DNA from: Candidatus Ruthia endofausta
GTDB lineage: Bacteria; Pseudomonadota; Gammaproteobacteria; PS1; Pseudothioglobaceae
Assembly (NCBI RefSeq): GCF_013342985.1
Contig: NZ_CP054490.1
Location: forward strand, 620,001 to 684,000
Length of the DNA: 64,000 bases
Direction: 5' to 3'
Shown in pieces: positions 10,529 through 62,557 of this stretch. Each line of letters starts with the position of its first letter. Position 1 is the stretch's first letter. Below the pieces are notes generated by a model. It was not told where the DNA came from, did not search any database, and saw only the letters and a program-made list of their open reading frames with translations. The translations under genes and the position numbers were made by a program.

Positions 10529-11059
10529 TTAGTTTCTTACGAATAACCCGATTACAAAAAAATACAAATAATCTTCAAATGAATTTTTATCTCTAAAACT
10601 GCCTACCACAATAGCGACAACAAGTAATATTAAATTAAAGAATTAAAAAAAATGAGCGTGATAATAAAGGCGTAACCCAACTGATGTATTGCCTCACCGC
10701 CAATAATGGCAGTCACTACTGTTGCAACCACCAGGTGGATGCATACATTTTAAAAAATGCATGGTAGTAAGTGCAAGTGAGATGGCAATTGAAGTCTCGC
10801 TAACAACATATCAGCAATTAAATAAAAACAAACAACACCCGCTGCAACAGAAACACTATACACTATACCCCACCAATTAAGTTCCACGGACGAGAAACTA
10901 AAGCTTGTGGCAAACCAAATGCCAACATTGTGAAGCACCAGTTGGAGTGATAATTAAAGGGAAGTCGATACTTTGTAGAGTAACATTAGAGAAAAATCTA
11001 GCCGTAACAACTGCTATGAACGCACCTATGGCTGATATTAATAATTCTTTATTGTGCAT
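10529..11059 (-). pseudogene. HPP-family membrane protein (putative nitrite transporter), degraded
   Basis: Pieces in different minus-strand frames together read as an HPP protein of about 177 residues. They are a first helix (ELLISAIGAFIAVVTARFF), FPLIITPTGAS, LNWWGIVYSVSVAAGV, the name-giving MHPPGG motif near 10730, and TAIIGGEAIHQLGYAF, then a final helix ending at 10531. At least three frameshifts separate them. HPP proteins have been linked to nitrite transport and sit beside nitrate genes elsewhere, which suits its place at the end of the nar locus. The ATG at 11059 lies inside the truncated end of narG. Confidence 0.8.
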
Positions 11060-12977
11060 AGCCACCAATCATATGGGCTGGGCTGGTAATTATTCTAGTT
11101 ACTGAATTATGAATACCACCTCTAAAGCCTAATTTTTCTGCCACAGGCGTGGTAGTGATTTTTTCTTGAGCGTAATACATAAGTGACATACCTTCTGGCA
11201 CCCTTTGTGATACTACAGCTCTTGTTACAATCATGCCATTAACATTGTATAATTCAATCCAATCATTGTCTATCACATCAATCTTTCTGGCATCAATTTC
11301 ACTTATCCATACTACTGACCAGCATGATTAAGTGTAAGCATTAATAAATTATCAGAATAAGTAGGATGAATACCCCATTTTTGATGCAGTGTAATCCAGT
11401 TTAGGACAATTTGAGAACGTCCATTATTATTTTCATTGATAATAGGTGCAACTGTTTTGGTATTAATAGGCGGCTTATAAGTACATAAATTTTCACCAAA
11501 ATCTACCATCCATTTATGGTTTTGATAAAACTGCTGCCTACCTGTTATTGTCCGCCAAGAAATGTATTCATGTACATTGGTATAACCTACATTATAACTA
11601 ACATGTTCATCTTCAAGTCCTGACTAAGTCGGTGACGAGATGATTCTTCTAGGCTATACTTGTATATCTCTAAACCTAATTTTCTCATCTTCTTTAAGTT
11701 TTGCTAAGTGAGTATGGATCTCTACTTATTATTTTCCCCAATACCTCCCAAGCTTTAACAGCAACCTGTCCATTGATTTCAGACGCTAAAAATAAAATAA
11801 CTTCAGTTGCATCAATATCAGTTTCTATTTTTAGGCGATCCTTTAGAAACATCTTCTTCCCTAACAATTTGATTCAAACCACCCAATAACATAACCTCAT
11901 CTTCGGTATTCCAAGCGATATCTTTGCCACCATTGTCTATCTTAGACATTAGCGAGTCCTAGTGAGGTAAACTTTTTATAAGTATCTGGATACAAACAAG
12001 TGGTTGACATTCTAAAATCAAGCGTTACAAAGCAAATCAACCTTGCCTTCTGCGCCTTCACGCCATTTAACTTTAAATGCCTTCTTATCTGTTTCGTTGT
12101 CTAGTGCTGCATTTTGCGCACCCAGTAAATATTTTAATAAATACTCATGACCTTTACCACTAGAATCTAATAAACTAGAACACCAAATAAACATGTTATG
12201 AGGAAAAAAATTGGATTATCAGGATCTTCATAAGAAAACTTCAAGTCTTTAGATTTGAGTTGCTAAACAATATAATCCTTAACTCCATGTCTGCTTTTTC
12301 TGCTTGCTTAGTAATTTCTAATGGATTTTCTTCAAACTGTGGCGCAGAAGGCAACCAGCCCATTCTTTCACTGCGAACATTACAACCTATCATAGAATAG
12401 CTTTCCCAGTGTTTTTTATCAGCTAATGGAGACAAAATATCATCAACCTCTAGTTTTTTTATAATGCCACTGACTAGAATGATTATAAAAGAATGAAGTG
12501 CCATTCATATGGCGGGGTTGGACCCCGATGCCAATTCAGCACAAATGTCAATGGCTGCCATCCTGTTTGTGGACGAAACTTTTCTTGACCCACATGATGA
12601 GACAAATCACCACCTAATTTACTAATGCAACCACACATCATTAGCTATTAATAATGCCACGATAAATCATATCCATATGGTAGCAATGGTTAACAGCAAC
12701 CCTTAGGCTCATGTGGTCTGGTAAATCTGGACGACTCCTTGGGTAATTAGTTTGTTGCGTTTTCCAAGTCACCAAGCCATTTTTTACATAAATTTTCCAA
12801 CTACATGAGCTCGTGCAGTTAACACTATACGTTGAACGAACAACTTTATCATGCCCCAGCAATTGCGATAAGCCCTTTCCCAATCTCTATTTTCATGTAC
12901 CCATTTCCCGTGGCCATTAGAAAAACCTTCAGGCTTTAATTGGGTAAAAATGTTACTATATCTAATAAATGACTCAT
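11049..12977 (-). pseudogene. narG: Respiratory nitrate reductase alpha subunit NarG, degraded and truncated
   Basis: The whole stretch is littered with NarG fragments in shifting frames. From the start they are a ribosome site and MSHLLD, then STYSVNCTSSCSWKIYVKNG and TWKTQQTNYPRSRPDLP near 12750-12850, mid-protein pieces such as CNVRSERMGWLPSAPQFEEN, HQKWGIHPTYSDNLLML near 11350, and finally VTRAVVSQRVPEGMSLMYYAQE and RGGIHNSVTRI. An intact NarG has about 1,240 codons; here about 640 codons' worth remain, so large deletions as well as point damage have occurred. The sequence stops at HMIGGYAQ, losing the C-terminus, and narH, narJ and narI are absent. Confidence 0.93.
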
Positions 12978-13008
12978 TCTTATCTCCTATTTCTATCTTA
13001 CTTTTTTG

Positions 13009-13829
13009 TTAGTTACTAAATCTTAATCGTTGAAATATTATTCTACTCAGCACTTTTGATAAAACCTTGATGTAAGTCAATAAATCAAATACTTTAGGGA
13101 TAATAAACGCACCATACGCCGCTATTGCAGATGTCCAATCCAGTACAGGGCCTGCTTCTTCTTTATTAAACACTTGTGAAATGGTTCTAAAAGTAGAGCT
13201 ATTACCCAAGCCAGTCATTGCAAATAACACTAAAAATAATTTGTGTTACTTTAGCACCGCTGATCTTATCAGCAATCATCCCACCAAGAGATCGAATAGA
13301 AGCATCAACAAAAACACCCATCCAAGCATAAGTGAGTGCTGATGAAGCATTTGGATTAGGAACATCGTGAACCCAGCCGTCGTTATTTAAAGTAGCAATA
13401 GCTACCGCATAAATTTCAGGTTTCATTAATGCCTTCGCACTTTCTAAGGCAATCAAACCATCAGACCCAAAAAAGATGTTGAAAACCAAAAATAACTTTT
13501 ATTGATAAAGCTAGCGTAAATAACTGAGATTTATCAGAATCATCATAACTTGTGTTTAGCATTTGGTACGGTGATAATACCCCAGATTAACCATGTGGCA
13601 AAACTTTGGTACTCTTTATCAAACCATTTGGCAGTATAGGCAATACCCACAAACAAGCCCAATACTAAAAATTACCAATACTGAGTTGCATCACCAATAA
13701 CTCTTTAATTGGAATGCCAATAATTGAAAACATTACCTACACAGCAAAACATGCTGTAAATGCAATAGTGTTAGCCGTTAAGAGTGAATTAGCTTGTGAT
13801 TTTTGACTACTAATCATTGACAAACTCAT
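13009..13829 (-). pseudogene. narK: Respiratory nitrate/nitrite antiporter NarK, degraded
   Basis: It begins at 13829 with a good AGGAG site, and reads NTIAFTACFAV, then a stop, then MFSIIGIPIKELL. Later fragments are in other frames: the loop GGMIADKISGAKVTQI near 13260, and AMTGLGNSSTFR, AGPVLDWTSAIAAYGAFIIP near 13100-13210. Several stops and frameshifts rule out a product. It was the first gene of the dead nar operon (narK, narG, ...). The assimilatory transporter at 2211-3680 is a separate, intact gene. Confidence 0.9.
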
Positions 13830-13894
13830 AACCTTTCTCCTTGATTTAATTTAAAATAATTAGGGTAATTTTGCACCCAATCTAATTAAAAACC

Positions 13895-13908
13895 TTGGCT
13901 TAGATCAA
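13895..13908 (-). promoter_or_regulatory. Candidate decayed FNR-type site upstream of dead narK
   Basis: On the minus strand TTGATCTAAGCCAA matches 8 of the 10 conserved positions of TTGAT-N4-ATCAA. It is about 65 bases upstream of the dead narK start, a suitable place for an FNR-activated promoter. It may be a chance match in AT-rich DNA. Confidence 0.35.
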
Positions 13909-14036
13909 GAAAATACAAGTTTTTTATATTAAAACAATTTGAATTTGGTTAAAATAGACTAATTAATCTATTTTTTAACAATCTCTTAAATGGTAGAATT
14001 AATCAAAAAATTAACTAACTGGTGATCTTTACATAT

Positions 14037-23820: not shown

Positions 23821-24837
23821 CTACCTGTAACCTTTTATTTGCATTAACTTCACTGCATCGGCTTGCAATATACCCGTTTGTGCCAAATTCATTTTATCTT
23901 GTTTGAACAAGCCCCAACTTGATACCACTTCATCTGAAGCAACATTTGGATTGGCTGGATATTCTTTATTAAGCGACGCGTAAATGGCTTGCGCTTTAGC
24001 ACTTGACAACCACTCTAATAATTTAATAGCACCCTTAGCATTGGTGGCATATTTTATCACGCCAGCACCTGATACATTTACATGCACTCCTGTGGTATCC
24101 TGATTTGCCCAAAATAGCTTCAATGGTACATTAGGATTTTGAGCAATTAAACGACCAAAATAATAAGTGTTTACCAAGCCAACATCACATTGGCCTGAAA
24201 CAATTGCATTCATAATATGAGAATCTTTAGCGTTGGGTATGGCTGCCAAATTATTCACCCAACCACTAATAATATCACCCGCTTTATTTTTGCTATGATG
24301 ATAAATCATCGATGCCACCAGTGATTTAGTGTAAATCTTTTTACTGGTTCTTAGACACAATCTACCTGTCCATTTAGCATCTGCCAAATTCTCATAGGTT
24401 GATAAGTCAGTTGGATTGACGCGCTCAGTGCTATAAACAATAGTTCTTGCACGCACTGACAAACCTGTCCATAAACCTTTAGGATCTCTCAAGTGGCTTG
24501 GAATATTATTTTCTAATGTTTGCGTTTGTACTACTTGAAATAAATCTTGTGTGGCCGCATACCAAAGGTTGCCTGCATCTACAGTCATGAACATATCGGC
24601 TTTGGTATTTTTACCTTCCAATTTCAAGCGTTCAATCAATGCACCACCCTTACCCGTTAAATACATAACTTTAATACCTGTGTCTTTTGTAAAAGACTCA
24701 AATAATGGTTTAATTAAATGCTCTTTTCTGGAGCTATACACAGTAACTGAATCTTCACTTTTTGCTTGTACTACGCCAATACTGCTTACCGCCAATGTCA
24801 ATGCCAATGTTGATGGCACCCATGTTTTTATATTCAT
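23821..24837 (-). CDS. fbpA: Iron(III) ABC transporter periplasmic binding protein FbpA
   Basis: A 338-residue protein with a cleavable signal peptide (about 1-25, ending VVQAKS) and the start of the FbpA/FutA fold (VTVYSSRKEHLIKPLFESFT). A YYFGRL segment (LVNTYYFGRLI) supplies the paired tyrosines typical of iron-binding members. A good AAGGAGAA site precedes the ATG. It lies between the ATPase and permease genes. Confidence 0.92.
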   Translation of the reverse strand: MNIKTWVPSTLALTLAVSSIGVVQAKSEDSVTVYSSRKEHLIKPLFESFTKDTGIKVMYLTGKGGALIERLKLEGKNTKADMFMTVDAGNLWYAATQDLFQVVQTQTLENNIPSHLRDPKGLWTGLSVRARTIVYSTERVNPTDLSTYENLADAKWTGRLCLRTSKKIYTKSLVASMIYHHSKNKAGDIISGWVNNLAAIPNAKDSHIMNAIVSGQCDVGLVNTYYFGRLIAQNPNVPLKLFWANQDTTGVHVNVSGAGVIKYATNAKGAIKLLEWLSSAKAQAIYASLNKEYPANPNVASDEVVSSWGLFKQDKMNLAQTGILQADAVKLMQIKGYR

Positions 24838-24881
24838 TCTTATTTTTCTCCTTATGAAAAATTGACTACGTTATGTAATTG

Positions 24882-25532
24882 TTAATTAATAGTCAACTGC
24901 TTATTCTTAATCATCCCTACTTTGTCAGCAAAAATAGTTGCTTCATGCTTGTCATGTGTTACTAAAATTGAAGTGACATTGGTTTTCTTTAAAATATCCC
25001 TGACCTGTAATACTAGTTGTTCTTGAAGGCTTTTATCTAAACTAGAAAACGGCTCATCTAATAATAACAATTTTGGTGAAGGTGCTAATGCACGAGCCAA
25101 GGCAACACGCTGTTGCTCGCCACCTGAAAGCTGGTGTGGATACTTTTTTTCGATGCCTTCCAACCCAATCATCAAAAGTAATTCTTCAACTCTTGCTTTT
25201 TGTTTGTTGTTTGATAAATGGTGAATACCAAAAGCAATATTTTTTTTAATATTCATATGTGGAAATAACGCATAATCTTGGAACACCATGCCTATTTCTC
25301 TTAACTCTGGCGCTATATTATGTACGCCATTGTTAGATAATTGCTTGCCATCTAAAATAACCCGTCCACTCTCTACCTCATCAAGACCTGCAATAAACCT
25401 AAGTGCTGAACTTTTGCCACTGCCACTATCACCTGTTAATGCAAAAATATCACCTGTAGCAAGACTTAAATCAAATTCACTTAAAACTTGAGTGGTCTGA
25501 TAAGCAATTGATAAATGATTAACTGATAGCAT
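24882..25532 (-). CDS. fbpC: Iron(III) ABC transporter ATP-binding protein FbpC (short form)
   Basis: Energises Fe(III) import. Walker A GDSGSGKS, Q-loop VFQDYALFPHM, signature LSGGEQQR, Walker B LLLLDEPF and H-loop VTHDKHEA are all present. It has 216 residues, whereas FbpC usually has about 350. The C-terminal TOBE/regulatory domain is absent and the protein ends cleanly after the nucleotide-binding domain (IKNKQLTIN). A Fur-like box lies 15 bases upstream of its start. Confidence 0.9.
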   Translation of the reverse strand: MLSVNHLSIAYQTTQVLSEFDLSLATGDIFALTGDSGSGKSSALRFIAGLDEVESGRVILDGKQLSNNGVHNIAPELREIGMVFQDYALFPHMNIKKNIAFGIHHLSNNKQKARVEELLLMIGLEGIEKKYPHQLSGGEQQRVALARALAPSPKLLLLDEPFSSLDKSLQEQLVLQVRDILKKTNVTSILVTHDKHEATIFADKVGMIKNKQLTIN

Positions 25533-25546
25533 TTAATAATAAAAAT

Positions 25547-25565
25547 GATAATGATTCGTATCATT
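25547..25565 (-). promoter_or_regulatory. Fur box upstream of fbpC
   Basis: GATAATGATTCGTATCATT matches the 19-bp Fur consensus at 13 positions. It is centred on a perfect AATGATA...TATCATT dyad (25545-25551 and 25559-25565). It lies 15 bases before the fbpC ATG. An intact fur gene is in the window at 41 kb. Confidence 0.75.
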
Positions 25566-25594
25566 ATATAAGATAACCAAAGAGAACGTCATGA

Positions 25595-26530
25595 TTAACT
25601 AACTTTGCAAAAAGACTTTGATAGGATTCTTTTATTGTCGTCAATATCAGCCATGACAGTGTCAAAATTTTCTGATTCTACTACCAAAAAGCCCCATCAT
25701 TGCCACATCTTCATGCTCTAATATGTGGCAATGATACATAAAAGGGGTATTGAGTATCAGCGTAGTGGTTAAATTTAGCAATCATCCTGACGATTTCTTC
25801 TGGCATAAGTAGCATAGTGTCTTTCCAACCACGTTCGTTTTCATTGGATGGCGTTGGATCTGAGCCATCGCCTTACTCTCTGTCAAGAATTCGAAACTGA
25901 ATATCATGAATATGGAAATGATGTACAGTGTGTGCCGTTGGTAATTCGCCAAATTTCAACATCGCTTTTTTACCACTTCATTAATCACACTCATGTCCAT
26001 TTGCATGCCATTAATCAAATACAACATATGCTTACCTTCAAGCGCAATGCCATTGAGTTTTTGTTTATCATAATATTCAGAACTGAAACTTTTGAGTCGT
26101 AAAATTTTATCCTTACTATTGCTTAAATCAAGTAAGATTTCTACACGTGTCTGTCGGACTTAGCAACACTCGTGTTAATGCCACAGATTTTTCTAAAAAA
26201 TCGCCATCACTGGCAATTTGATAAAATGGCATATCGCCTTCAAAGCCCAAGTTATAAATTCTTGCGTTAGCACCATATAGGTACTCTTAATTTAATCACT
26301 TGGACATGAATATTTAAATAGGTACAGGTTCCTGCCATTGAGCAGAATTGTATGACCCTTCATGCCACCTGATTTATCAAAATCACCCTTGTTTAAATAA
26401 AGCAATTGGGTGTTTTCATCAAACCGCTTATCTTGAATCACTAGGGGTAAATCACCAACACCTAAAAACTGGGGCTAGCCAGCACAACAAATTTACCCAT
26501 TGAGTTTGAGAGATTTAATGATAAACCCGT
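25595..26530 (-). pseudogene. Multicopper oxidase, degraded C-terminal two thirds
   Basis: Fragments in several minus-strand frames give the order expected of CueO-type oxidases. They are PLVIQDKRFDENTQLLYLNK near 26400, a middle domain near 26100-26300, then the copper ligands VHHFHIHDIQFRI near 25890, a WKDTMLLMPEEIVRMIAKFN stretch, and a broken HCHILEHE equivalent near 25700. Stops and frameshifts occur throughout and the N-terminal copper site is missing. The final frame stops at 25595, just before the fbp Fur box. A role as ferroxidase or copper oxidase in the ancestor is inferred. Confidence 0.82.
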
Positions 26531-38067: not shown

Positions 38068-39318
38068 ATGTCACGAATTGCAATTTTAAGTGTCAATCAC
38101 CAACTCGCACCTGTTGAAGTGCGAGAAAAAGTTGCTTTTGCACCAGATAAATTAACTCAAGCACTAAGTAATCTTCATCATATTGATGGCATTGATGCTT
38201 GTATTATTCTTTCCACTTGCAATCGCGTAGAGATTTATGTCGCCTCTAATCATAAAAACCCTAAAGAGTTGTTGAGTGATTATCTTGCCAAAACACACGA
38301 CATTAAACGTGACACAATCGATTCTTATTTGAATTATTTTGAAAACAATGAGGCACTTACACACCTATGCAACGTTGCCACAGGTCTTGATTCATTGGTG
38401 CTGGGCGAACCACAAATTCTAGGTCAATTAAAAGATGCCTATCACGCAGCAAAAGAAGCCAAAACTCTAAATAAGCTATTAGAAAAACTATCCCAACATG
38501 CATTCTCAACTGCCAAAAAAATACGTACCGACACCCAAATTGGCGCTTCACCCGTCTCAATTGCCTATTGCGCGGTAAAACTTAGTGAAAAAATTTTTGA
38601 AAAGTTATCCGAACAAACTGTTTTGCTCATCGGTGCAGGGGAGATGATTGAACTGTGTGCACAATATCTTAACCAGAAAGGGGTTAATAAGATGATTATT
38701 GCCAACAGAACCATTGAAAATGCAAAAAAAATTGCCCATTTATATCAAGCACAATCTGTTAGTTTAAAACAATTTTCATCCATTGTATACAAAGCAGATA
38801 TTATCATTTCTTCAACAGCAGCTTTAGTGCCCATTATCGGCAAAGGCTTAATTGAAAGTGCTCTAAAAAAGCGCAAACACAAACCAATATTTATGCTTGA
38901 TATTGCTATCCCTAGAGATATTGAGCCTGAAGTAGGTCAATTAGATGATGTATATTTATATACCATTGACGATTTGAAGCAAGTGGTTAATGACAATATC
39001 GGTAACAGAGAGAAAGAAAAAAGTTTGGCACAAGAAATTATCATTAAACAAAATCAAATCTTTAATCAGTGGTTGAATACTATGCCTAACGAGCAAATGG
39101 TACAGTCCTATCAATTTGGTGCAAACTCAATTAAAAACAAACTCTTAAAAAGAGCCATCAAACAACTAAAAAATGGTGCTGATTCTGAAGATATTATTCG
39201 TAAGCTTGCTGATCAATTAGCCAACAAACTATTACATTTACCCTTTAAAAATATCAAACAAACTTCCATTGAAAATTTACCCCAATGTGAAGGCTGTATA
39301 CCTCATATTAAAAAATAA
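38068..39318 (+). CDS. hemA: Glutamyl-tRNA reductase HemA
   Basis: First enzyme of the C5 tetrapyrrole pathway. 416 residues with active-site C51 in [22 protein letters not shown], the NADPH-binding LIGAGEM and ANRT region, and a long C-terminal dimerisation helix. Its stop overlaps the prfA ATG by 1 base. A damaged copy of its 3' end (39139-39290) lies at 52014-52131. Confidence 0.97.
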
Positions 39319-41657: not shown

Positions 41658-42083
41658 ATGAACAAATTAACTTTGATTGTATCCTTATTACCATTCTTAT
41701 CTGCATGTCTGCCTAAAATACCAGATATGCCATTACTAACACTATATAAAGATGACATCCACCAAGGCTCGGTACTGGAAAGATTTAAAATTAATCAATT
41801 GAAATTAGGCATGTCTAAAATACAGGTGCAAGATTTAATTGGATCGCCAAGCATTATTGATTCCTTTCACAACAACCAATGGGACTACATTAACCACTCT
41901 ACTTTGTATAAAAAGGATGATATCCACTATCGCTTAATATTAAAATTTAACGATACCGTACTGACGCATATCAACACAACTGGTATCGGCTCATTATCAC
42001 AACTTACTAACAAAGAAAAAGAAGCAGAAAACAAACGTATTGGTGATGAAAAGAGGCAAAAAAAGCTAAAGAAAAAGCCTTAG
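41658..42083 (+). CDS. bamE: Outer-membrane assembly lipoprotein BamE (SmpA/OmlA), tail frameshifted
   Basis: BamE stabilises the BAM outer-membrane insertion complex. Lipobox FLSACL (C17). The core LKLGMSKIQVQDLIGSPSII and NQWDYI match the family. The 141-residue frame ends in KRQKKLKKKP. The frames after a poly-A run near 42056 and again near 42100 continue an extension (EAKKAKEKALAEAKAV, then GYVKQPKKPIRKFENQ...) that stops at 42203. So the lysine-rich tail is broken by two indels, while the core domain is intact. Divergent from fur. Confidence 0.88.
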   Translation: MNKLTLIVSLLPFLSACLPKIPDMPLLTLYKDDIHQGSVLERFKINQLKLGMSKIQVQDLIGSPSIIDSFHNNQWDYINHSTLYKKDDIHYRLILKFNDTVLTHINTTGIGSLSQLTNKEKEAENKRIGDEKRQKKLKKKP

Positions 42084-42237
42084 CTGAAGCTAAAGCAGTT
42101 AGAGGGTTATGTCAAACAACCTAAAAAACCCATTCGTAAATTTGAAAATCAATTAGAAAATAATACTAGCGATGAAAAGATTGTTAATACAAAAACACCT
42201 TAATATAAGTTTTAATAGAAAACCTTTATATAATTAC

Positions 42238-45753: not shown

Positions 45754-45773
45754 TGTTGGTATAATAACCAACA
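45754..45773 (+). promoter_or_regulatory. Promoter of the ahcY leader with -10 inside a small palindrome
   Basis: TATAAT (45760-45765) lies between TGTTGG and CCAACA, a 6-bp perfect inverted repeat (45754-45759 and 45768-45773). The riboswitch starts about 7 bases after it. The palindrome could be an operator or chance. Confidence 0.5.
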
Positions 45774-45777
45774 TGCT

Positions 45778-45838
45778 AAGGAGCGTTGCATTGAAAAACT
45801 TCTTTCAATCAGGCTTGGCAAATCAAAACGACGCTCAT
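45778..45838 (+). ncRNA. S-adenosylhomocysteine (SAH) riboswitch
   Basis: GGAGCGTTGC at 45780-45789, a TTGAAA / TTTCAA hairpin (45791-45796 / 45803-45808), AGGCTTGGC at 45811-45819, and closing ACGCTC (45831-45836) pairing with GAGCGT (45781-45786). This is the layout of the SAH riboswitch (AHCY motif), and the downstream gene is ahcY. A T run follows P1. SAH binding is expected to raise ahcY expression. Confidence 0.9.
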
Positions 45839-45869
45839 TTTTTTAAACCCTTTTGTAGGAGAACAAAAA

Positions 45870-49387: not shown

Positions 49388-50413
49388 ATGAATGACTTTT
49401 TACAAAACATAACACCTTATCAGTCCATTGGTGCTTTATTTGTTATTGCATTCACTGCGCACATGACACTTGGCTTTATTTTAAACAGCATTGCCAAACA
49501 TACTAGCAAAACGAAAAATCAATTAGATGACCATTTAATCAAAGCAGTATCACCGCCACTTAAAGTGTTAATTTGGTTTAGTTTGGTATTTTTATCAATT
49601 AGTGTATTTAAAGACCAAGTTAAAATCTTGGTCAGTGTTATTACCTATATTGATACCATGCCCATCTTTATCATTACTTGGGGGGTTGTTCGAATGATGT
49701 CAGGCGTTGAGGCTTACTTAATTGAAAAAGATACACAAATTGATAATGATTCAGTCAGACTATTTTCAAGATTGGCTAAAATTTTAATTATCATTGCCAT
49801 TGCCTTAACTGTAGTACAACACTTAGGTTTTTCAGTTTCTGGTTTGCTTACGTTTGGTGGTGTTGGCGGTATTGTGATGGGTTTTGCTGCTAAAGACATG
49901 TTGTCAAATATTTTTGGTGGATTAATGATTCAAATGGACAAGCCTTTTTCAACAGGCGATTGGATTCGCTCTGATAAATTTGAAGGCACGGTTGAAAAAA
50001 TTGGCTGGCGTATGACACGCATCCGTACTTTTAGCAAAAATCCTGTTTATATCCCCAATTCAATTTTTGCCACCATTCCCATTGAAACCCCATCACGTAT
50101 GACCAATCGTCGTATTAAAGAAGTGATTAGCATTCGCTATGATGACATTGAACAACTTCCTATTATTATGAGCGAAATAGAACAAATGCTCAAAAAGCAT
50201 GTAGACATTGACCATTCTCAATCACTAAGGGTTTATTTTAATCATTTTAATACCTCCTCGCTCGATTTCAATGTGTATGCCTTTACTAATACCGTTAATA
50301 AAACCACCTATCAAAAAGTAAAAGAGAAAATTCTATTAAGCATTGCACAAATTATTACCAAACACAAAGCTGAGATTGCCTATCCCACCCAAACTTTGTA
50401 TATTCAGAAATAA
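49388..50413 (+). CDS. Mechanosensitive channel, MscS family
   Basis: 341 residues with four to five hydrophobic segments at the N-terminal half and the pore/vestibule pattern GGVGGIVMGFAAKDMLSNIF then GGLMIQMDKPFSTGDWI. Releases solutes during hypo-osmotic shock. Which paralogue is not clear. Confidence 0.85.
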   Translation: MNDFLQNITPYQSIGALFVIAFTAHMTLGFILNSIAKHTSKTKNQLDDHLIKAVSPPLKVLIWFSLVFLSISVFKDQVKILVSVITYIDTMPIFIITWGVVRMMSGVEAYLIEKDTQIDNDSVRLFSRLAKILIIIAIALTVVQHLGFSVSGLLTFGGVGGIVMGFAAKDMLSNIFGGLMIQMDKPFSTGDWIRSDKFEGTVEKIGWRMTRIRTFSKNPVYIPNSIFATIPIETPSRMTNRRIKEVISIRYDDIEQLPIIMSEIEQMLKKHVDIDHSQSLRVYFNHFNTSSLDFNVYAFTNTVNKTTYQKVKEKILLSIAQIITKHKAEIAYPTQTLYIQK

Positions 50414-50419
50414 AAATTT

Positions 50420-51739
50420 ATGCAAAAATTATACATCCGCACTTTTGGATGCCAGATGAATGAATACGATTCTAATAAAATGGCCGATGTGCTTAAACAC
50501 TCTCATGGCTTAGTGCCAACTGATGATGCAACTAGTGCTGATGTACTGCTACTTAACACTTGCTCAATTCGTGAAAAAGCCCAAGAAAAACTATTCCATC
50601 AACTCGGTCGTTGGCGCAAATTAAAAGACAAAAATCCTAATTTAATCATTGGCGTAGGTGGCTGTGTTGCCTCACAAGAAGGTGAGTTAATTCTCAAACG
50701 CGCCCCTTATGTAAATATCATTTTTGGTCCACAAACCTTACATAGATTGCCAAATATGCTCAATGATGTGCTCAATAAGAAGCAAACCAATATTGATATT
50801 TCATTTCCAGAAATTGAAAAATTTGATCATCTACCAAAGCCAGAAACCAACGCCGTTACCGCTTTTGTCTCAATTATGGAAGGTTGTAGCAAATATTGTA
50901 CATTTTGTGTTGTGCCTTATACGCGTGGTGAAGAAGTATCACGCCCATTTAATGATGTCATCAATGAAGTTAAAATTTTAACCAACCAAGGTGTTAGGGA
51001 AGTTAACTTACTTGGACAAAATGTCAATGCCTATCAAGGTTTGATGGATGATGGGGAGATGGCTGATTTGGCACTGTTAATTAACATTGTAGCTCAAATT
51101 AATGGCATTAAACGCATTCGCTATACCACCTCACACCCAAGCCAATTTAACGACAGTTTAATTGAGGCTTACATGGAGGTGCCAGAATTGGTTTCGCACT
51201 TACACTTGCCCATTCAAAGCGGTTCTGACAAGATTCTCAGACTGATGAAACGCGGACATACGACCATTGAATACAAATCAAAAATTAGAAAATTACGTAA
51301 AATTCGCCCAAATATTTCTATATCAAGTGATTTTATTATCGGTTTCCCGGGTGAAAATGAGCAAGATTTTCTTGACACCATGACACTAATTGATGACATT
51401 GGTTTTGATAAATCATTTAGTTTTATCTATTCTGCTCGCCCTGGAACGCCCGCTTCAAGTTATCCTGATGATGTTGATATGGGTGTTAAAAAACAACGCC
51501 TAACCTTAATACAAAAAGCAATAGACAAAAATACTGAAACCATCTCTAAATCAATGGTTGGTAGTGTGCAAAAAGTACTGGTAGAAAATATAGCCAAAAA
51601 AGGAGATCACTTATTTGGACGTACAGAAAATATGCGTAATACGCACTTCAAAGGTGACAAGTCCCTGATTGATCAAATTGTCAATATAAAAATTACCCAA
51701 GGTCGTGGTAATTCTTTAATGGGTGATTTACTCACCTAA
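50420..51739 (+). CDS. miaB: tRNA-2-methylthio-N6-dimethylallyladenosine synthase MiaB
   Basis: Adds the methylthio group at tRNA A37. 439 residues with N-terminal cluster cysteines in [21 protein letters not shown] and VGGCVA, the radical-SAM CSKYCTFC motif, and a C-terminal TRAM domain. 6 bases after the channel gene. Confidence 0.96.
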
Positions 51740-51756
51740 ATTTCGACTGGTTCCAA

Positions 51757-51788
51757 AAGGAAATAAGACTTTCCAAGTCTCTTTCCTT
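51757..51788 (+). terminator. Hairpin after miaB
   Basis: AAGGAAA-taa-GACTT-tcc-AAGTC-tc-TTTCCTT, a two-part stem starting 17 bases after the miaB stop. No T run follows, so efficiency is doubtful. Confidence 0.45.
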
Positions 51789-51889
51789 GTAACCACTATT
51801 ACATTAGCAATCCAATGCATTTTACTAAGCAAACATAAAGTGAAAAGTCCCGCCTTTAAAGTGATTTTTTTCTTGCTTTTATAAGTGAT

Positions 51890-52267
51890 AGGATGGTAAA
51901 TGATGATTAATTTCAACCTTTTCAGAATTAACCAGTCTCATCTACATCAACACCCTCTATATAAACATCAATAACAAATGGCCTGGCTTCTAGAATACCT
52001 CGTGGCAGTATAACGAACTCTTAGAAAGAGCCATCAAACAACTAAAAAATGGTGCTGATTCTGAAGATACTATTCGTAAGCTTACTGACCAATTAACCAA
52101 CAAACTTCCATTGAAAATTTACCCCAATGTGATTAAGTGCTAATATTTGTCTTTCGCCAATTGCCACTCGACATAATGACTTTTCAATTTGATAATGCTC
52201 AACTTTAATCACATGAGCGATGGGATTTTATACTAAAGCAGTAAACTACTGCTATTAACTTTATTTT
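51890..52267. other. Decayed DNA between miaB and sco
   Basis: On the minus strand a short open piece reads PRGILEARPFVIDVYIEGVD just left of the hemA fragment, and another (PIAHVIKVEHYQIEKSLCRV) just right of it. Both look protein-like but I cannot assign them. Together they may be one dead gene into which the hemA fragment was inserted. No functional gene is seen in 51740-52267. Confidence 0.35.
52014..52131 (+). repeat. Displaced, internally deleted copy of the 3' end of hemA
   Basis: The sequence matches hemA 39139-39290 at nearly every base, beginning AACTCTTA and ending CCCCAATGTGA. About 34 bases of hemA (from CTATTACATT to AAACAAA) are missing between short AACAAAC repeats. A few substitutions have accumulated. 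Non-coding as it stands. Confidence 0.9.
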
Positions 52268-52978
52268 TCAATAATTTTTGATGAGTAGTTCAATGTCATC
52301 TGCCATTTTAATCGGGTTATGCGGAGCAGGAAAGCCCGCAAAAATTTGCCCATCTGGATTGAGTAGATAAATCCAAGCGGTATGATTAATCAAGTAGCCA
52401 AACTCTAGAACGCCTTTTGGCAATGGCTCATCATTTTTAAGCACTGTTGGCTTGCCATTTTTTGCATAAACCACTCGTTCATAATACGCACCAAAGGGTT
52501 TGATAAGCTGATTAATTTGTACTTGGTCACCAGACACACCTAAAAAGTCTTTATCAAAATAAGTCACATAAGTTTTTAACACGCCCGGCGTGTCTCTAGC
52601 TGGGTCAAAAGTAATAGCAACAAGGTTTGGTACAATGTTTATACCTCTTTTAATCAAAGTGGATTTAAGTATTGACATATCCATTAACCCAGTAGGACAT
52701 ACATCTGGACAATGTGTATAAATAAAGGATAACAACGTCCATTTTCCTTTAAAGTTATTGTTATCGAATTTATTGTTGTTATGATCAACCAGCGAAAAAA
52801 AAGGCAATTTCTTATCAGGATTGTGAAGAACGTAAGAGACTTTAAGCTGTTTTTCTAAATCTTTGTAATTTTTATTAGGACTGGTAAAATAAAATGTCGC
52901 AATGACCAGTGCAACCACGCCAATACCACTAAGTAATTTATTATTCATAAGACTAAATATATGTTGATTGCTCATCAT
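52268..52978 (-). CDS. Cytochrome oxidase copper chaperone, SCO1/SenC family
   Basis: 236 residues with an N-terminal membrane anchor (about 15-33), the copper-binding TLLSFIYTHCPDVCPTGL with C-x3-C, and the distal histidine in LINHTAWIYLL. Delivers Cu to cytochrome c oxidase CuA. Next to other copper proteins (PCu(A)C, DUF2946). Confidence 0.92.
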   Translation of the reverse strand: MMSNQHIFSLMNNKLLSGIGVVALVIATFYFTSPNKNYKDLEKQLKVSYVLHNPDKKLPFFSLVDHNNNKFDNNNFKGKWTLLSFIYTHCPDVCPTGLMDMSILKSTLIKRGINIVPNLVAITFDPARDTPGVLKTYVTYFDKDFLGVSGDQVQINQLIKPFGAYYERVVYAKNGKPTVLKNDEPLPKGVLEFGYLINHTAWIYLLNPDGQIFAGFPAPHNPIKMADDIELLIKNY

Positions 52979-61268: not shown

Positions 61269-62015
61269 ATGCCTAACCATTATTATTTAATCATTCCTGC
61301 TAGTGGTGTAGGTACACGTATGCACTCTGAAAAGGACGGTCTTGATTGGCAAGCCAAAATTCCCAAACAATATCTAAAATTAGATAACAGATTAACCATA
61401 CTTGACCAAACATTAAAAACCTTACTTAGTATTGATCAAATCAAGGGTTACGTCATTGCTATTGCAAAAGAAGATCGTCTATTTGCCAAATCAACATTTA
61501 ACAACCACCCCAAATTATTAACCACAGTCATCGGTGGCAAAGAGCGCATGAATTCTGTTATCAATGCGCTTAAAGAACTCATAAATTTCGCCAAAAACGA
61601 TGATTGGATATTGGTTCACGACAGTGCCCGCCCCTGTGTGAAGACATCAGAAATAATCAATTTAATGAATCAACTCAAATACCACGCAACTGGTGGATTA
61701 CTTGCAACTAAGGTTGTTGACACCATTAAACAAGCTAATAATAATATTGTCAACACCACCATTGACAGATCAAATCTTTGGCAAGCCCAAACGCCACAAA
61801 TGTATCGCTTTGGTATATTATTAAAAGCCTTTAATACTGCCATCAAGGATGGTATTAACACCACCGATGAGGCTAGTGCCATTGAGCACTTGGGGCTTGA
61901 GTCAATTTTGGTTAAGTCTAGCAGAAGCAATATCAAAATTACCAATCCAGAAGATTTGGCACTGGCAAATTTTTACTTAACTCGGTATCAAAAAACTTTT
62001 AATCCTAGGCACTGA
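61269..62015 (+). CDS. ispD: 2-C-methyl-D-erythritol 4-phosphate cytidylyltransferase IspD
   Basis: MEP isoprenoid pathway. 248 residues with ASGVGTRM at the N-terminus, KIPKQYLKL, VHDSARPCV and the C-terminal SRSNIKITNPEDLALA. Fifteen residues longer than E. coli IspD. IspF is not adjacent; decayed DNA follows. Confidence 0.94.
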   Translation: MPNHYYLIIPASGVGTRMHSEKDGLDWQAKIPKQYLKLDNRLTILDQTLKTLLSIDQIKGYVIAIAKEDRLFAKSTFNNHPKLLTTVIGGKERMNSVINALKELINFAKNDDWILVHDSARPCVKTSEIINLMNQLKYHATGGLLATKVVDTIKQANNNIVNTTIDRSNLWQAQTPQMYRFGILLKAFNTAIKDGINTTDEASAIEHLGLESILVKSSRSNIKITNPEDLALANFYLTRYQKTFNPRH

Positions 62016-62557
62016 ACACTAAAGCCGAAATCCTTACTACGCGAATTAGGAAGCACTTGAGCATTGCCACTAAATAGAAGACGGTAACTGAGCATTAACC
62101 TCAACCTCAATAGAGCTTCACAAGTACGCACCCGAGTCTCGATATAAAGAACCACCAGCGTCGCGGCGGCCCCGCTAAGTGTACCTCGAATCATTGCCAG
62201 TAGTAACCGCATGTTTCATATTTTCAGCAGTCTAGGTTTGGCTGTCAATGGTGACAATACTGCAAGTAATACCACCTGCGACCAGAACCAAACTGATTAA
62301 AAAACTCATTGGCTTTGTCATTCATCAAGTTTTCGGCTTTATTAATGGCTTAAATCACTAGCATTGTCTGAGTTTGTAGAGCCTAGGGCGTTGCGTAGTG
62401 TGCTACCCTCTTCTTTGAGTAAGGTGGTTGTTTTGGGGTTTTTTTTGTTAACAACGGTTTAACTGTACTTAGTGTTTAAATCTAGGTAAGTGGGTTTATC
62501 GAAAGTATCAGTGGTTTGTGCACCAATGAAAAATGAAAGACTAAAAAGAGTGCTCAT
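62016..62557 (-). pseudogene. Exported protein gene, degraded (possibly inverse-autotransporter-like)
   Basis: From the ATG at 62557, MSTLFSLSFFIGAQTTDTFD looks like a secretion signal and first residues, then stop codons. A later frame reads AINKAENLMNDKANEFFNQF followed by GSGR, reminiscent of the periplasmic-to-barrel region of intimin/invasin-type proteins, but that is weak. The lower part (62030-62250) is more GC-rich and shows no clear frame. Nothing functional is visible in this stretch. Confidence 0.4.

Follow-up and report, generated by a model that had tools for sequence, protein, structure and literature searches.

An apparent copy-and-insert of a hemA fragment into a gene remnant of the clam symbiont Candidatus Ruthia endofausta

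Results

A displaced copy of the hemA 3′ part

The genome of Candidatus Ruthia endofausta carries, within what is left of the gene after sco1, a 120-bp copy of the 3′ part of hemA, while hemA itself remains intact. We consider this copy most probably the product of a single copy-and-insert accident (illegitimate recombination) in this lineage of clam symbionts, which has been drifting since, and we put the probability of this reading at roughly 0.78. The stretch of DNA that was analysed, called the window throughout, comprises 64,000 nucleotides (positions 620001-684000 of a single-contig genome of 1,188,809 bases); coordinates refer to the window unless assigned to the genome, and those of the features are collected in Table 1.

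Table 1 Coordinates of the features discussed in the text
Feature	Position	Strand	Remarks
hemA, glutamyl-tRNA reductase, 416 aa, intact	38068..39318	+	GlutR_N, Shikimate_DH and GlutR_dimer matches
Donor segment within intact hemA, 154 bp	39136..39289	+	
Donor bases absent from the copy, 34 bp	39231..39264	+	flanked by 8-bp direct repeats
miaB-like gene (UPF0004, Radical_SAM, TRAM), open	50420..51739	+	neighbour on the remnant's other side
Remnant of the gene after sco1 (155 aa in G010)	51728..52267	-	deletions of 2, 2 and 40 bp (G010 as reference), stops, hemA-derived insert
Ectopic copy of the hemA 3′ part, 120 bp	52012..52131	+	precise insertion relative to two sister species
sco1/senC, open	52268..52978	-	upstream neighbour of the remnant
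Self-blastn match 1	39136-39243 vs 52012-52124		E 6e-35
Self-blastn match 2	39257-39290 vs 52099-52132		E 6e-10

Copy and donor were delimited with the help of two sister species in which the site is empty. Relative to the genome's own hemA, the copy differs by 6 substitutions in 120 positions and by a 34-bp deletion, and the longest runs of identity between the two measure 45 and 35 bp. A 118-base query searched against the whole genome, with all 13 of 13 candidates scored, returned itself and hemA (E 1.3e-35) and no third place; at this E value a chance resemblance can be excluded. The near-identical partial copy of the hemA 3′ end, 13 kb away, that the initial annotation had described is thus real and correctly located, although its exact ends had been placed one to three bases off. 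When the window was compared with itself by blastn (E ≤ 1e-3), the pair of hemA and copy was the sole dispersed repeat, and a more permissive repeat finder added one 30-nt pair (59061/60395, 80% identity). The copy lies in direct orientation relative to hemA with 12,876 bp between them, and no plus-strand open reading frame of at least 20 aa was found to overlap it.

The insertion site is empty in close relatives

Judged by hemA, the nearest named relative is Candidatus Ruthia sp. Cpac_8_S14 (96% protein identity), followed by other Candidatus Ruthia, Ruthturnera and Vesicomyosocius genomes, all of them symbionts of vesicomyid clams. In the two nearest relatives in our set, the sisters G002 and G010, the target site is uninterrupted, TAT being followed directly by ATTAAG in both, and alignment to their syntenic stretches returns the copy as an exact 120-base excess against either. 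Among the excesses of at least 15 bp it is the only one with identical ends against both sisters, in a comparison for which G010 was aligned over window positions 3247-61978; partly overlapping excesses occur within 10604-13937 and at 42043-42168. The copy is absent from all 11 other genomes of the genus, in which the 120 bp match hemA alone when every first-look candidate is scored, and a search with a longer query, scoring the best 12 candidates per genome, likewise finds no copy there. Of these 11, G002 and G010 have both flanks well aligned at the empty site, four (G001, G005, G006, G009) have a site that is alignable yet diverged, and another four (G003, G004, G007, G011) lack most of the homologous DNA between miaB and sco1; G008, a draft with the flanks on separate contigs, was left out of the site alignment. 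The search among relatives that had been proposed with the initial annotation thus yields an insertion that is lineage-specific, with an empty site in close relatives.

The same alignments brought up three further differences. The stretch 10604-13937 aligns poorly with both sisters, unlike most of the window; at 42043-42168, 126 bp are absent from G002, of which 22 bp (42092-42113) are absent from G010 too; and within a gene for an MscS-type channel (49388-50413), 736 bp (49600-50335) are absent from G010.

Junctions and the internal deletion

The insert begins with AACGAAC and ends with CAATGTG, as read in the window. At each junction a single A is ambiguous and the next base differs, which leaves at most 1 nt of homology on either side, and the target site is complete, with zero target bases lost and a target duplication of at most 1 nt (the ambiguous A). 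Because hemA has stayed whole and the target has lost nothing, the event was a copy-and-insert and not a cut-and-paste, and since the two sites share at most one base at the junctions, homologous recombination was not the route; such little or no homology at both ends is what marks a non-homologous insertion.

The precision of the junctions also bears on two other explanations. The evidence for the insert comes from a single assembly, and one could imagine that a fragment of hemA had been misassembled into this position; this is very unlikely, given that hemA, the sole other copy in the genome, has neither the 6 substitutions nor the 34-bp deletion, and that the flanks are joined without the loss of a base. 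One could also speculate that a transposon, an IS fragment or a retrocopy moved the fragment, as the clade does carry dispersed near-identical segments of another gene family (described below). The ends of the insert, however, are not inverted repeats of each other (5/15 bases match), the target duplication does not exceed 1 nt, and the insert is plain hemA sequence with no dispersed copies sharing its ends, so that a transposable element or MITE is not supported; reverse transcriptase (PF00078), which was found in 3 of 14 controls, gave 0 matches in this genome. We regard mobilisation by such an element as highly improbable, in line with the initial annotation, which had seen no transposon.

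The 34 bp missing from the copy, likewise noted at the outset as lying between short repeats, are bounded in hemA by direct repeats of the 8-mer AACAAACT at 39223-39230 and 39257-39264, of which the copy has kept one. A lost stretch bounded by short direct repeats, with one repeat retained, is what a slippage deletion would leave. The loss shifts the reading frame of the hemA-derived copy.

The target gene is wrecked

The copy sits antiparallel within the decayed gene downstream of sco1. In G010 this gene is an open minus-strand frame of 155 aa directly after sco1, between the miaB-like gene and sco1, and open relatives occupy the same position in the outgroups G020 (157 aa) and G018 (153 aa). 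With the G020 and G018 proteins as queries, 5 of 18 stretches gave a match, namely those of the present genome, G002, G010, G014 and G024. As to the family of the gene, a Pfam search with 2 of the proteins gave zero matches, and an NCBIfam search with 3 gave none above the cut-off. In the window the hemA insert adds three stops to the remnant, in the frame considered, on top of the lesions listed in Table 1; a 2-bp difference at 52330 was not counted, being an alignment-end effect. The counterpart in G002 is broken as well, by a 22-bp deletion, two 1-bp insertions, stops and a 6-bp in-frame loss. Both genomes have an indel at 51850, where they are 2 bp (present genome) and 22 bp (G002) shorter than G010, and no other lesion is common to them. 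The indel at 51850 allows for an earlier shared frameshift, and the gene may already have been broken before the insert arrived. What is new here is the location of the copy, within a gene that one sister species and some outgroups have kept intact and that is wrecked in the window.

Age and donor of the copy

Among 12 hemA sequences the genome's own is closest to the copy, with 6 differences, followed by those of G002 and G011 with 7 each; over the same sites own hemA differs from G002 hemA at 5/120 positions, and from that of G011 also at 5/120. A G at 39152 is common to the copy and own hemA and occurs in none of the other 11 genomes, and a C at 39280 is common to the two and also found in G008. 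The changes at 39194, 39208 and 39220 are best assigned to the copy, and each of the three would alter an amino acid; the copy's base at 39194 recurs in G003, and its base at 39220 recurs in G001, G005, G006 and G009. Another two or three, among 39139, 39148 and 39213, fall on own hemA. Two of these conflict with copying after the split from G002: at 39148 the copy has G, the older base, against A in both own and G002 hemA, and at 39213 it has the base of G002 in place of that of own hemA.

Tree-based analyses of the 120 sites are underpowered. Maximum likelihood joins the copy with own hemA at a support of 65, and the two with G002 at 94. Of seven placements compared by AU tests, likewise underpowered on these sites, one is rejected, the attachment to G010 (p 0.013). 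Attachment below own and G002 hemA together (p 0.756) would, on these sites, be as good a placement as the best one; the p values of the others are 0.697 for own hemA alone, 0.162 for G002, 0.177 for G003, 0.366 for G008 and 0.181 for G011. In view of the two conflicting sites and these tests, the copy may be of slightly earlier origin, or another strain may have been the donor. The fragment might come from the hemA of another related symbiont strain, as foreign DNA joined by illegitimate recombination, a scenario that would account for the bases at 39213 and 39148, is compatible with the unrejected attachments to G002, to the base of own and G002, and to G003, G008 and G011, and is in keeping with the modest recombination in vesicomyid symbionts described in the available text of PMC7473567. 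The G at 39152 that only the copy and own hemA have, the position of own hemA as the closest of the 12 and the partner of the copy in the best tree, and the rejection of G010 all argue against it, and we find it unlikely. A less likely possibility still is that the insertion predates the split from G002, which later regained an empty site by recombination with another strain. The base at 39148 and the AU result for the placement below own and G002 hemA speak for such an early origin; it would, however, require the exact removal of the copy, and the site is empty in G010 too.

The copy-specific changes, 3/120, amount to 2.5% (Poisson 95% range 0.5-7.3%), to be compared with 4.6% for half of the divergence between the present genome and G002 in the surrounding 51740-52267 (35/382 differ). 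These counts allow an age of the copy that ranges from fairly young back to the split from G002. The dating by substitutions that the initial annotation had proposed can be run, with 3/120 assigned to the copy, but its range is too wide to show recency, and the term "recent" used there is too strong: copy and own hemA differ at 6/120 positions and own and G002 hemA at 5/120, so that the duplication is maybe nearly as old as the split.

The amino-acid changes in the copy, together with the frameshifting loss, are as expected in the absence of selection. A functional role could nevertheless be envisaged in an RNA that targets hemA mRNA as antisense or decoy, given the two long runs identical to hemA and a terminator-like hairpin downstream on the plus strand (52237-52253; 2 sites in 51600-52400 against 0.5 expected). 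Yet the copy is lineage-specific, lies within a pseudogene and is drifting, promoter-like matches are near chance (5 found versus 3.1 expected, sd 1.7), and the site has zero Rfam matches. We consider such a function extremely improbable, and the copy appears to be without sign of function.

Repeat content and consequences of the direct repeats

The initial annotation had suggested that the two copies could promote deletion or inversion of the DNA between them. Deletion holds; the repeats being direct, crossing over would delete or tandemly duplicate the 13 kb and not invert it. This interval contains prfA, a BamE-domain gene, and the genes for SAM synthetase, ahcY and glyQ, and its loss would probably kill the cell. 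An SAH riboswitch lies at 45772-45843, between the SAM synthetase gene and ahcY.

The characterisation of the genome as otherwise repeat-poor applies to the first 61 kb of the window but not to the segment at 61999-62547. The whole window was compared with the genome in four pieces, scoring for each the best 40 of 52-107 candidates, so that weak or nearby repeats can be missed; one of the genome searches omits the hemA pair, which falls within the query's own match. Within these best 40, the only other match of the first 61 kb elsewhere is a prfA segment (77%, at genome 167579). The gene matched there is presumably prfB. Four weak inverted matches of 33-70 bases point to the same places as self matches. 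The 549 bp at 61999-62547, flanked by what we take from the translations to be ispD and lon, are 100% identical to genome 238012-238560, and 227 bp of them (62277-62503) are identical to genome 504327-504553; the genome thus holds other dispersed duplicates, of another kind. This segment resembles an inverse-autotransporter (IAT_beta/Fib_succ_major) gene family, whose relatives in G010 include a 575-aa gene, most of which, a 1,334-bp stretch, is 99.9% identical at two places; in G011 a 1,603-bp stretch of the family is 99.9% identical among three places. Near-identity within G010 and G011, with more difference between species, is a sequence pattern that fits homogenisation or recent spread. 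Self-comparison of the stretches of the two sisters (75 and 78 kb) gave no dispersed pair.

Discussion

In the sequence of events that we favour, a 3′ stretch of hemA would have been copied without damage to the donor, and the copy would have been inserted 12.9 kb away, within the gene next to sco1, at junctions with no more than 1 nt of homology each. The 34 bp between the 8-bp direct repeats would have been lost during or after insertion in the manner of replication slippage, and the copy would then have drifted within a gene that is itself a pseudogene. A DNA fragment could have been captured at a break, or a replication fork could have jumped to hemA and back (template switch); both molecular routes fit, and either leaves the same marks. 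Short-patch double illegitimate recombination (SPDIR) is a further known mechanism to be mentioned in this context. Ku-dependent end joining is unsupported, the genome having 0 matches to Ku (PF02735), which was found in 1 of 14 controls.

This genome has a recA gene, in a frame of 365 codons from stop to stop; in 5 of the 12 genomes of the genus the gene was not found. As a separate observation, the open frame of this recA, which lies in the region 24200-26200 of the genome, stops 6 codons short of the recA frames of G002 and G010, with a changed C-terminal tail. The available text of PMC3202245 reports the loss of recA in parts of the vesicomyid-symbiont clade and, among the ways in which larger deletions can arise without RecA, names illegitimate recombination and slippage; that of PMC5310779 likewise names illegitimate recombination for deletions without recA, and that of PMC7473567 suggests slipped mispairing or strand annealing.

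The event is of a known kind, a clean example of an ordinary DNA accident, and general literature searches returned no publication naming this copy in its title or abstract opening. Its value lies in being a well-resolved natural example of an apparent templated illegitimate insertion in an endosymbiont, in which each component, from donor and empty site to junctions and slippage deletion, is still legible, and in showing that a shrinking genome can also pick up fragments of its own sequence. Being one event, the insert tests no general claim by itself. One could speculate that recurrent copy-and-insert of own fragments breaks genes in shrinking, recA-bearing symbionts, and that decaying genes fill up with scraps of neighbouring genes, but this is a doubtful extension: a second case was found neither in the window nor in the 75 and 78 kb of the two sisters. 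The dispersed IAT_beta/Fib_succ_major segments may be the more useful lead, and would be consistent with copies that still recombine with one another in those members of the clade that have recA.

Compared with illegitimate recombination and ectopic partial gene duplication in bacteria generally, the event is alike in that a segment was joined elsewhere at 0-1 nt of homology while the donor was kept, and we found nothing distinctive about it, except that empty site, donor and secondary deletion are here visible together. The 34-bp loss resembles RecA-independent deletion between short direct repeats, as in replication slippage, with the difference that it hit a duplicate and not a unique gene. 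Finally, the wrecked target resembles the decay of genes in vesicomyid symbionts as treated in the available text of PMC3202245, where genes break in a lineage-specific manner through small indels in a shrinking genome; whereas the lesions described there are few-base deletions and insertions, those here include an inserted piece of the genome's own DNA.
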